Shown here one piece after another: positions 2 to 30,522 of a DNA stretch of 34,123 nt. The notes under the pieces were generated by a model. That model was not told where the DNA came from. It made no database searches and worked only from the letters and a program-made list of their open reading frames with translations. The position numbers were made by a program, and so were the translations under genes. The stretch comes from an uncultured Erysipelotrichaceae bacterium (GTDB lineage Bacteria > Bacillota_I > Bacilli_A > RF39 > UBA660): contig CADCJQ010000013.1 in assembly GCA_902801795.1 (NCBI GenBank), forward strand, positions 1 to 34,123, written 5' to 3'. How positions within the stretch are numbered: position 1 is the first letter of the stretch; every line of letters starts with the position of its first letter.

Positions 2-292
2 GGCACAAATATGACATATACAGGACTGGTTGGACTATTACGTGCAGGAGAAATGATGTCAGCACAGCAATCGACGCTTACGCATATTAATAGTTATAGT
101 GATTACAAGCATATGTGGTTAATAACACCTTATAGTTCCTCCAGCGTGCGTAGCGTGTACAGTGGCGGTAATACTGGTAGCCCCTCGCCCAGTTCCAACG
201 CGTACGGCGTCCGACCATCTATCAATCTAAAATCTGAGACAAAAATTATCGGTGGAACTGGATTTATTAATGATCCATATGAAATTGGATAA
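2..292 (+). CDS. C-terminal end of a surface protein (truncated by window start), paralogue of the protein ending at 30522
   Basis: The reading frame is open from the first bases and stops with TAA at 290-292, so this is the 3' end of a longer gene. The visible 96 codons match the C-terminus of the surface protein ending at 30522: both have a hydrophobic I/LGLI-type strand, a W-L/S-x-TPY motif, a divergent stretch, then YGVRPSINLK (here) or NGLRPSISLK (there). Such ends are typical of C-type-lectin or sulfatase-modifying-factor-like domains on secreted proteins of gut Firmicutes (family knowledge; exact family not verified). Codons in 134-214 are GC-rich and unlike the rest of the window. Function is probably extracellular ligand binding, by inference. 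A terminator follows at 372-398. Confidence 0.75.
   Translation, partial: GTNMTYTGLVGLLRAGEMMSAQQSTLTHINSYSDYKHMWLITPYSSSSVRSVYSGGNTGSPSPSSNAYGVRPSINLKSETKIIGGTGFINDPYEIG
134..214 (+). other. GC-rich variable-looking segment in the lectin-like C-terminus (candidate DGR variable repeat)
   Basis: By my count 50 of 81 bases are G or C (about 62%), in a window that is otherwise roughly 30% GC. Of the 27 codons, 26 end in C, T or G, with AGC, TCC, CCC, GCG, GGC and GTG, codons almost absent elsewhere here. The segment sits just before the conserved GVRPSIN strand, where diversity-generating retroelements diversify C-type-lectin-fold proteins. No reverse transcriptase or template repeat is present in the window, so the assignment is inference. 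Confidence 0.5.
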
Positions 293-13996: not shown

Positions 13997-14073
13997 GGGC
14001 GATTAGCTCAGTTGGTTAGAGCACTTGCCTTACAAGCAAGGGGTCATAGGTTCGAGTCCTATATCGCCCACCA
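13997..14073 (+). tRNA. tRNA-Val (UAC)
   Basis: Seven-bp acceptor GGGCGAT/ATCGCCC, anticodon stem CTTGC/GCAAG with loop CTTACAA, anticodon UAC, TTCGA T-loop and encoded CCA. First gene of the ten-tRNA operon. Confidence 0.97.
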
Positions 14074-14080
14074 TTTTTAT

Positions 14081-14156
14081 GCCGAAATAGCTCAATTGGT
14101 AGAGCAATTGATTTGTAATCAATAGGTTACGGGTTCGATTCCTGTTTTCGGCACCA
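14081..14156 (+). tRNA. tRNA-Thr (UGU)
   Basis: Acceptor GCCGAAA/TTTCGGC, anticodon stem ATTGA/TCAAT with loop TTTGTAA, anticodon UGU, encoded CCA. Confidence 0.97.
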
Positions 14157-14159
14157 TAT

Positions 14160-14243
14160 GGAGAGATAGCGAAGAGGCTAAACGCGACAGACTGTAAATC
14201 TGTTCCTTCGGGTTCGGTGGTTCGAATCCACCTCTCTCCACCA
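14160..14243 (+). tRNA. tRNA-Tyr (GUA)
   Basis: Acceptor GGAGAGA/TCTCTCC, anticodon GUA, long variable arm typical of bacterial tRNA-Tyr, encoded CCA. Confidence 0.97.
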
Positions 14244-14249
14244 TTCGAT

Positions 14250-14324
14250 TGCCTCGTAGCCAAGTGGTAAGGCAACAGACTTTGACTCTGTCATTCGCTA
14301 GTTCGAACCTAGCCGAGGCAGCCA
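14250..14324 (+). tRNA. tRNA-Gln (UUG)
   Basis: Acceptor TGCCTCG/CGAGGCA, U1-A72 as is usual for tRNA-Gln, anticodon UUG, discriminator G, encoded CCA. Confidence 0.96.
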
Positions 14325-14336
14325 TTTTAGTTTTAT

Positions 14337-14412
14337 GTCCCGTTAGCTCAGTAGGTAGAGCATTTGACTTTTAATCAAAGGGTCGTGAGTTCGAATCTCG
14401 CACGGGACACCA
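14337..14412 (+). tRNA. tRNA-Lys (UUU)
   Basis: Acceptor GTCCCGT/ACGGGAC, anticodon stem TTTGA/TCAAA with loop CTTTTAA, anticodon UUU, encoded CCA. Confidence 0.97.
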
Positions 14413-14427
14413 TTTTTTATTAATAAT

Positions 14428-14516
14428 GCCTGAGTGGCGGAATAGGTAGACGCACAGGACTTAAAATCCTGCGAGAATAAACCCTCGTGTCGGTTCAAGT
14501 CCGACCTTAGGCACCA
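14428..14516 (+). tRNA. tRNA-Leu (UAA)
   Basis: Class II tRNA with a long variable arm. Acceptor GCCTGAG/CTTAGGC (one G-U), anticodon stem CAGGA/TCCTG with loop CTTAAAA, anticodon UAA, encoded CCA. Confidence 0.96.
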
Positions 14517-14523
14517 TTTATTT

Positions 14524-14616
14524 GGAGGAATACCCAAGTCCGGTTGAAGGGATCGGTCTTGAAAACCGAGAGGTCGTGAAAGCGGCGCAGGGGTTCGAAT
14601 CCCTTTTCCTCCGCCA
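14524..14616 (+). tRNA. tRNA-Ser (UGA)
   Basis: Class II tRNA of 93 nt with a long variable arm. Acceptor GGAGGAA/TTCCTCC, anticodon stem TCGGT/ACCGA, anticodon UGA, discriminator G, encoded CCA. Confidence 0.97.
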
Positions 14617-14629
14617 TTTTATGTTATAT

Positions 14630-14704
14630 CGCGGGATAGAGCAGTGGTAGCTCGTTGGGCTCATAACCCAGAGGTCGTAGGTTCAAATCCTTCTCCCGCA
14701 ACCA
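14630..14704 (+). tRNA. Initiator tRNA-fMet (CAU)
   Basis: Anticodon CAU. Two initiator marks are visible: an unpaired C1 opposite A72, and three G-C pairs (GGG/CCC) at the base of the anticodon stem. CCA is encoded. It is slightly short (75 nt), with a compact D arm. Confidence 0.95.
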
Positions 14705-14708
14705 ATAT

Positions 14709-14785
14709 GGTCTGTTAGTGCAGTGGCCTACCACGTCTGCCTGTCACGCAGAAGATCACGGGTCCGAATCCCGTACAGACCGCCA
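14709..14785 (+). tRNA. tRNA-Asp (GUC)
   Basis: Acceptor GGTCTGT/ACAGACC, anticodon stem TCTGC/GCAGA with loop CTGTCAC, anticodon GUC, discriminator G, encoded CCA. Confidence 0.97.
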
Positions 14786-14788
14786 GTT

Positions 14789-14864
14789 GGCTCTTTAGCT
14801 CAGTCGGTAGAGCAAGGGACTGAAAATCCCTGTGTCGGTGGTTCGATTCCACTAGGAGCCACCA
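14789..14864 (+). tRNA. tRNA-Phe (GAA)
   Basis: Acceptor GGCTCTT/AGGAGCC (one G-U), anticodon GAA, encoded CCA. Last gene of the tRNA operon. Confidence 0.97.
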
Positions 14865-28622: not shown

Positions 28623-30522
28623 ATGATAAAAAGTAAAAAACAAATGTTATTAGTAATAACAATATTTACGTTATTGCTAACGTTAGGTAGTGTAACGTAT
28701 GCATTCTTTAATTATACAAGAACAGGGGCAGCAAATGTAATTAAGACAGGAAGAATATCTTTTATAACAAGACAAACAGAAACAATTAATTTAACTAATT
28801 TATTTCCAATAGATCCAACAGAAACAGGAATAATGAATGATGAAACAAAAGTTGGAACATTTGAAATAGAAGTAGAAGGAGATACTGATTATGTAGGTGG
28901 TATTGAATATTTAGTATCAGCAGTAAACTCTCATCTTACAACATCAACAGGTTACTAAAATATATAAAAGACTATCAGGAAATGGTATTATGGGAGATGG
29001 TAATATCTTAGTAGGATATATACCACAAAATACTACCTTAGGAACACCAAGTGGAATAAATGGAAAAATAACTATTAAAGCCTATTTAGATAAAAATAAA
29101 ATAGCAATTTCTGATACCTATGATGGAAATGAAACAGATTTAATGGGAACAACTAATGATTGGGTAGATGGAAGAGTAGTATTAACAACAGAAGAATGGA
29201 ATTCTTTACAACAAAATGGAATAAGTTTTCAAGTAAAAGTAGAAGCGAATGAAGATATATGGGTAGAAGAAACATTATATGATATTATTGAAAGACAAAC
29301 AGTAATGGATAATATCAATAGTACATATGTAAATAATACAACACCTGGAATAGATTTTAGTCAAATATCAAGTGATACCAATGGAAAAGGAGTATACACC
29401 TTTAGTAGTACAGCCAATGATGCCTATCCAGTAATGTATTATCGAGGAGTAGTAGATAATAACAATGTTTTATTTGCTAATAAATGTTGGAAAATGGTAA
29501 GAACCACAGATACAGGTGGAGTAAAACTAATCTATAATGGAGAAAATAAAGGAACAGAGGAAACACCTAATTGTGATAATACAGGAACTGATACTCAAAT
29601 AACGTTAAATATAGATGGACAAGATGTAAATACTTTTGCCTTTAATGAAAATGCTAATTCACCAGCTTATGTTGGTTATATGTATGGTACAGTATATAGT
29701 TCAACAAATAGTCTTGCACAAGATGGAGCTTACTTTGGAACAGGATTTACATATGATAGTACAAATAATGTATATACATTAGTCAATGCTAAGGAAGGAA
29801 GTGATGAGTATCATCACTATACGTGTAATGAAACAAGTGCTTCAACTACATGTGAAAATATAAGATATTATTCTTCAACGTATTATTTTACATTAAGTAA
29901 TGGTAAAAGTATCGAAGATGCTCTTCGTGAAATGCAAACTAATACAAATGATTCTAATGCAAAAGAAATGTTAGATAGATGGTATGAAGAACATATCGAT
30001 AATACAAATTTTGAAGCTAGTTTAGAAGATACAATTTGGTGTAATGATAGAAGTATTTATCGAATAGGTGGATTTAACCCAAATGGAGGCCCAATTACAA
30101 ATAATAATACTGGAGATTTACAATATTCAGGGTTTGAAAGAGCAATTACATATAATCCTAGTTTAAATTGTAAGAAAAATGATTCATTTACTATGACAAA
30201 TGGAAGAGGAAATGGAGCACTTAATTATTCTATAGGGATAATTACAAGTGATGAACTTATGTTGGCTGGTGGAAAACACGCAGGAGCAAATAAAGCCTTT
30301 TACCTATATAATGGCACAAAATGGTTTTCTCTAACCCCTTATTTCTTTAATTACTTTGGAGTCACTTATTTGCATGTGTTTAGTTCACAAAATGGAATGA
30401 TAATGTCAGGATCTACAACTAGCACCAATGGTCTTCGTCCATCTATATCCTTAAAAAATGGCACCGCAATTGTAGATAACGATGCGGATGGAACTGTAAG
30501 TAAGCCATATGTGATTAAATAA
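28623..30522 (+). pseudogene. SipW/TasA-type surface protein, interrupted by a frameshift or small deletion
   Basis: Piece one (28623-28958, 111 aa) has a basic start, a hydrophobic signal and VTYAFFNYTRTG, the junction of SipW-processed TasA/camelysin-like proteins. It then has a beta-rich domain that stops at TAA 28956-28958. Piece two continues in the +1 frame: KIYKRLSGNGIMGDGNILVGYIPQ from about 28957, then roughly 500 more residues. It ends in a lectin-like C-terminus with GIITSDELMLAGG, WFSLTPYF and GLRPSISLK, the same ending as the gene at 2-292. The two pieces clearly belong to one ancestral gene. An out-of-frame deletion near 28955 is most likely, because the join removes residues expected between the domains. 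ATG 28990 could still give a signal-less protein. Confidence 0.75.

Follow-up and report, generated by a model that had tools for sequence, protein, structure and literature searches.

Proteins with a DUF6273 domain, which resembles C-lec (PMC10743442), are published targets of diversity-generating retroelements (DGRs) in phages, where the variable repeat (VR) lies at the C-terminal end of that domain (PMC11792537, PMC10743442). In addition, data from natural populations have led to the proposal that DGRs act in trans on remote targets (PMC10907252), and such remote targets are missed by surveys that look only beside the reverse transcriptase (RT) (Roux et al. 2021, PMC8144416). Here we describe a lectin-like gene of the DUF6273 type from an uncultured Erysipelotrichaceae bacterium. 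It lies at the start of the window, by which we mean the whole stretch of DNA analyzed, i.e., positions 1 to 34,123 (34,123 nucleotides) of contig CADCJQ010000013.1 of assembly GCA_902801795.1. The first-pass annotation had read the segment at 134-214 as a possible VR of a DGR. Our analysis partly supports this interpretation. We consider it very probable that the segment is the VR of a DGR target gene that has lost its own template cassette by deletions, leaving the VR probably frozen.

The window gene is the 3' part (96 codons; positions 2-292, plus strand) of a DUF6273-type gene with two lectin-type domains that is cut by the contig start. Its frame is open from base 2 and ends with a stop codon at 290-292. 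The DUF6273 match of this fragment is weak (E value of 8.5e-4, under the gathering score), and the inner domain of the paralogues matches above the gathering score. An AlphaFold model of the lectin-like domain was discarded (pLDDT of 35). Using protein and DNA searches, we found close paralogues on contigs C37, C61, C12, C9, and C30 (two on the last) and more distant ones on contigs C24 and C4; at least eight lectin domains of close paralogues exist elsewhere in the genome. The close paralogues share 60 to 80% protein identity with the window gene and have near-identical flanks, and the complete family members are proteins of 726 to 769 amino acids with two lectin-type domains, each of which ends in a variable tip. 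No protein relatives of the family were found in viral collections, genome collections, or phage records, nor did its lectin-like/DUF6273-type domain match any of 50,697 phage records. Within the window, the first-pass annotation had pointed to a paralogue at 30351-30440 with normal AT content and conserved flanks. The GC content there is 0.38, and the gene concerned is only a distant relative of the window gene (38% over about 55 amino acids, E value of 0.08), and the near-identical flanks belong to the closer paralogues on other contigs. This lectin-like gene (28990-30522) has no GC-rich tip (GC content of 0.36 to 0.38) and is possibly not, or no longer, diversified.

A complete, textbook DGR is present on contig C3 of the same assembly (G000; 1.51 Mb in 81 contigs, 71% complete, 1.3% contamination). 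The only RVT_1 match in the assembly (E value of 4e-16) is located there, in a locus (L001) that consists of the terminal part of a lectin-like gene, including a VR, an intergenic template repeat (TR), an Avd-like open reading frame (ORF), and an RT of 491 amino acids. Of the 101 nucleotides compared, the C3 VR departs from the TR at 23, each of them among the 39 template A's, and the 62 other positions agree. The best PDB match of the RT is 8ub7 (E value of 3e-22), and its motifs are IGAMTSQ (SQ-type) and YMDD; the Avd-like protein matches PHROG 3206 (E value of 8e-8) and, under the NCBIfam cutoff, the NCBIfam Avd model (E value of 1e-4). Thus, the genome-wide search for a DGR-type RT that the first-pass annotation had proposed yielded such an RT together with Avd and A-rich template repeats. 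A congeneric genome (G002) shows the same layout as C3, with 16 A-site differences and no others in a stretch of 60 nucleotides, and related DGR-type RTs occur in 93 of the 193 genomes of the family that were sampled. The C-terminal part of the C3 RT (L001:1267-2742) also matches MutS domain I (E value of 1e-6), and in a relative (L087) a separate ORF of at least 149 amino acids upstream of Avd resembles this part by eye. In the same L087 locus, from a member of the family, an A-rich template-like segment (L087:1841-2106) lies downstream of the RT and is followed by another ORF and then by a gene of the lectin-like type, an order unlike that of the C3 locus. The C3 TR itself was rejected as the source of the window VR; its best ungapped A-tolerant match is 60 of 81 positions, within the background of neighboring offsets.

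By nucleotide alignment, the nearest relative of the window segment is TR9, a template-like segment on contig C9 (C9:30375-30452, minus strand). TR9 aligns without gaps with the VR at 135-212 (plus strand) over 78 nucleotides, 60 of which are identical (blastn E value of 2e-15). Changes affect 11 of the 21 A's of TR9 versus 7 of its 57 non-A positions (Fisher P value of 5e-4), and the resulting codon changes include AAC to AGC, TAC, GGC, and CCC as well as AAT to AGT and ACT. Fisher values from gapped A-tolerant alignments are biased by the scoring and were set aside, with the exception of this ungapped comparison, for which plain blastn gives the same alignment. Because of the seven non-A differences, TR9 would be a sister of the window's template and not the template itself. 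When the assembly (71% complete) was searched with an A-tolerant pattern that requires agreement with the window VR at every non-A site, the sole match was the window itself. The near-identical template foreseen in the first-pass annotation, differing at A's only, was therefore found in part: the differences from TR9 favor template A's, but seven fall on other bases, and no exact template was found genome-wide, nor was a cognate RT. The annotation had expected RT and template upstream of the window or elsewhere in the genome; a DGR-type RT is present on C3, and related templates are present on C4 and C9.

TR9 and its counterpart TR4 are A-rich segments that lie outside ORFs and closely follow the C9 and C4 genes, respectively, so that template cassettes are present for paralogues of the window gene. 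The C9 gene adjoins a tryptophanyl-tRNA synthetase-like gene. TR4 (about L037:890-965, minus strand) forms A-specific pairs with both tips of the C4 protein (gene at L037:1112-3418), with 12 and 11 A-site differences, respectively, and a single non-A difference each; apart from the latter and a 6-nucleotide length difference common to both tips, it is their exact donor. Relative to TR4, both tips contain 6 additional nucleotides in roughly corresponding positions, as though TR4 had become shorter once it had been copied. Since neither cassette has an RT, both would need one in trans.

Each of the two TRs is followed by a noncoding stretch of 148 nucleotides (L033:5229-5376 after TR9; L037:744-890, minus strand, after TR4); the two copies share about 93% identity, and the stretch has a predicted fold. 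No Rfam family fits this putative RNA tail, and sub-threshold Rfam matches of the cassette to eukaryotic families were taken as chance. A 22-mer from the tail is absent from viral and genome collections, and its covariance model finds only this genome among 193 of the family, apparent matches in the genus being AT-rich noise; no relative carrying both the RNA tail and an RT was found among the 193. A motif shared by the tails of the C9/C4 cassettes and the C3-type DGRs in a MAFFT alignment was unsupported by shuffles and was dropped. In two relatives, the covariance model also gives weak matches immediately downstream of the TR (E values of 0.09 and 0.48), which are only suggestive of a link between the RNA tail and C3-type DGRs. 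Several observations count against the DGR reading: (i) the window VR has no template that agrees with it at every non-A site, (ii) the sole RT found, on C3, has a different template, (iii) the RNA that follows the TR shows no significant similarity between C3-type DGRs and the C9 and C4 cassettes, and (iv) no exact implied template is common to paralogue pairs.

The downstream flank of the window gene contains a remnant of such a cassette. Genome-wide, the cassettes of C4 and C9 are the two best non-self matches of this flank, and the similarity resides in three blocks on the plus strand, as follows. Positions 307-322 correspond to the cassette leader (TAGGTATATAGTGTAG, compared with TAGGTGTATAGTGTAG in C9), as identified by chain alignment. 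Positions 331-350 (CCTTGTACATGGTACTAAAA) correspond to the conserved noncoding RNA after the TR, the C9 cassette being the second-best non-self match genome-wide. Positions 351-398 correspond to the 3' end of the cassette with a terminator-like hairpin in common with the C4 cassette (91% over 35 nucleotides, E value of 1e-7, the best non-self match in the genome). The three blocks are collinear with the cassette, with a chain score of 54 versus a maximum of 32 in shuffles. Only the cassette flanks are present at 307-398, from which the TR and the RNA core are missing; the region thus lacks the adjoining TR that an active cis DGR requires. Because the remnant has lost both TR and RNA core, the window VR would be a remote DGR variable repeat that is probably orphaned. 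The simplest history compatible with these sequences is that the window gene formerly had its own template, which has since been deleted.

The mechanism that we propose for this locus would involve the following steps. An A-rich template RNA would be transcribed from the cassette just downstream of the gene and reverse-transcribed with errors at the template adenines, and the cDNA would then replace the tip of the lectin-like domain, thereby turning AAC and AAT codons into NNC and NNT. The RT-less cassettes, of which there are at least two (C4 and C9), would be served by an RT in trans, while deletions would have removed the template and most of the RNA from the window cassette. The RT in question may be that of C3 or a second one that is missing from this assembly or has been lost. 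The sequences show the DGR itself, the A-specific pairs of TR4 with its VRs, the membership of the window gene in the family, and the cassette remnant; from these we infer trans action of an RT, past activity at the window locus, and present inactivity there. With its own cassette deleted, the window VR would probably be frozen if no template at another locus supplies it. Such a template could be TR9 itself, in loose use, or an intact sister copy of TR9 in the 29% of the genome that is not assembled; in either case, the window gene would not be orphaned but would still be active as a remote target. The 71% completeness of the assembly, the location of many lectin genes at contig ends, and the trans-acting remote targets documented in Thiohalocapsa PB-PSB1 (PMC10907252) speak for this alternative. 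Yet the assembly contains no such template, and the remnant just downstream suggests that the gene once possessed a template in cis; we regard continued service from elsewhere as rather unlikely.

The pattern of variation within the family bears on a second alternative. The window gene and the C37 paralogue differ at 26 of 75 VR nucleotides but at only 1 of 81 in the downstream flank, which forms the conserved strand after the VR (RPSINLKSETKI...; 212-292, plus strand; 80 of 81 nucleotides identical); paralogue flanks are conserved, and the interior is variable. The ratio of differences at codon positions 1 and 2 to those at position 3 is 188:105 in the VR and 80:100 in the flanks, and in VR pairs involving the window 29 of 34 third-position differences are C/T. 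Ordinary positive selection with recombination among paralogous lectin genes, by which the GC-rich patch would have been imported with no retroelement at the locus, could account for the non-A differences between the window and TR9 and for several VR ends that are common to paralogues (e.g., TTCCAACGCGTACGGCGTCCG, which the C9 protein has in its inner domain). On these grounds, recombination among paralogues may contribute. As a full explanation it is improbable, given the A-site specificity seen with TR4 and TR9, the presence of RT and Avd, the template cassette remnant beside the window gene, and flanks without comparable change. The view that a DGR rewrote this patch, the hypervariable tip of a lectin-like protein of the surface type, is largely supported by these sequence comparisons.

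The segment also stands out in composition. Its GC content is 0.617, compared with a mean of 0.270 (standard deviation of 0.071) for 81-base windows of the contig, whose maximum (0.63) lies at position 135. The only comparable GC island of the contig is part of the tRNA cluster at about 14.0 to 14.9 kb, which is less GC-rich than 134-214. Ten tRNA genes are clustered there (13997-14861), in the sole other strongly GC-rich stretch of the contig. The A content of the segment is 17% versus 39% window-wide, and just 22 of 34,043 81-base windows are equally A-poor. A occupies the third position in 1 of its 27 codons (CGA), compared with about one-third elsewhere (22 of 65 codons in the flanks of the window gene and 172 of 503 in the next gene). 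Both the adenine-poor island of 62% GC and the near absence of third-position A over 27 codons, as first annotated, are hereby confirmed. The accompanying claim that the rewriting of A's by a DGR raises the GC content needs qualification: such rewriting does add to it, but TR9 and TR4 have 53 to 54% GC from the start (74 to 80% at their non-A positions), so that A-to-N mutagenesis would merely add to a GC content that is already high. That the island has no special meaning, and reflects either recent foreign DNA or codon bias in a loop rich in Ser, Gly, and Pro, the codons of which are GC-richer, is very improbable, since it has the highest GC content in 34 kb, ends precisely at the conserved strands in all close paralogues, recurs in the paralogue tips with different residues, and belongs to a gene family in which TR/VR pairs occur.

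More generally, this genome may harbor a split DGR, in which several surface lectin genes would each have a private RT-less cassette with its own conserved RNA tail and would share one RT acting in trans. Each gene could then acquire a cassette, which could drift or disappear independently of those of other genes, and its loss would freeze the receptor tip, as in the window. We put this model forward tentatively, at somewhat less than even chances. The presence of two RT-less template cassettes and a deleted one in a single small genome makes the trans use and the loss of DGR templates testable. Targets such as those of C4, C9, and the window would be missed by surveys of RT neighborhoods.

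Compared with the DGR of Bordetella phage BPP-1 (Mtd, Avd, bRT, and TR), the C3 locus is similar in its DGR-type RT motif, Avd, intergenic TR, A-specific TR/VR differences, and VR at the C-terminal end of a lectin-like domain. Unlike in BPP-1, the C3 RT has a C-terminal MutS_I-like region, and the window gene lies far from any RT, in a cellular multigene family with RT-less TR cassettes. Thiohalocapsa PB-PSB1 (PMC10907252) likewise has remote or incomplete DGRs, with targets that have no adjacent RT, multiple loci per genome, and proposed action in trans; some of its VRs match the TR of another locus perfectly at non-A sites, whereas no perfect TR was found for the window. With the DUF6273 targets of Faecalibacterium prophages and the tentaclins (PMC11792537, PMC10743442), the family shares the VR at the DUF6273 C terminus and more than one VR per DGR, but here the genes look chromosomal, each protein has two DUF6273-type domains, and one TR covers both tips. 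Because DGRs that act in trans and targets of the DUF6273 type are already published, our finding falls within a known kind of DGR. The genomic arrangement is unusual, and the finding extends the known DGR targets to a chromosomal family of lectin-like proteins with two tips.
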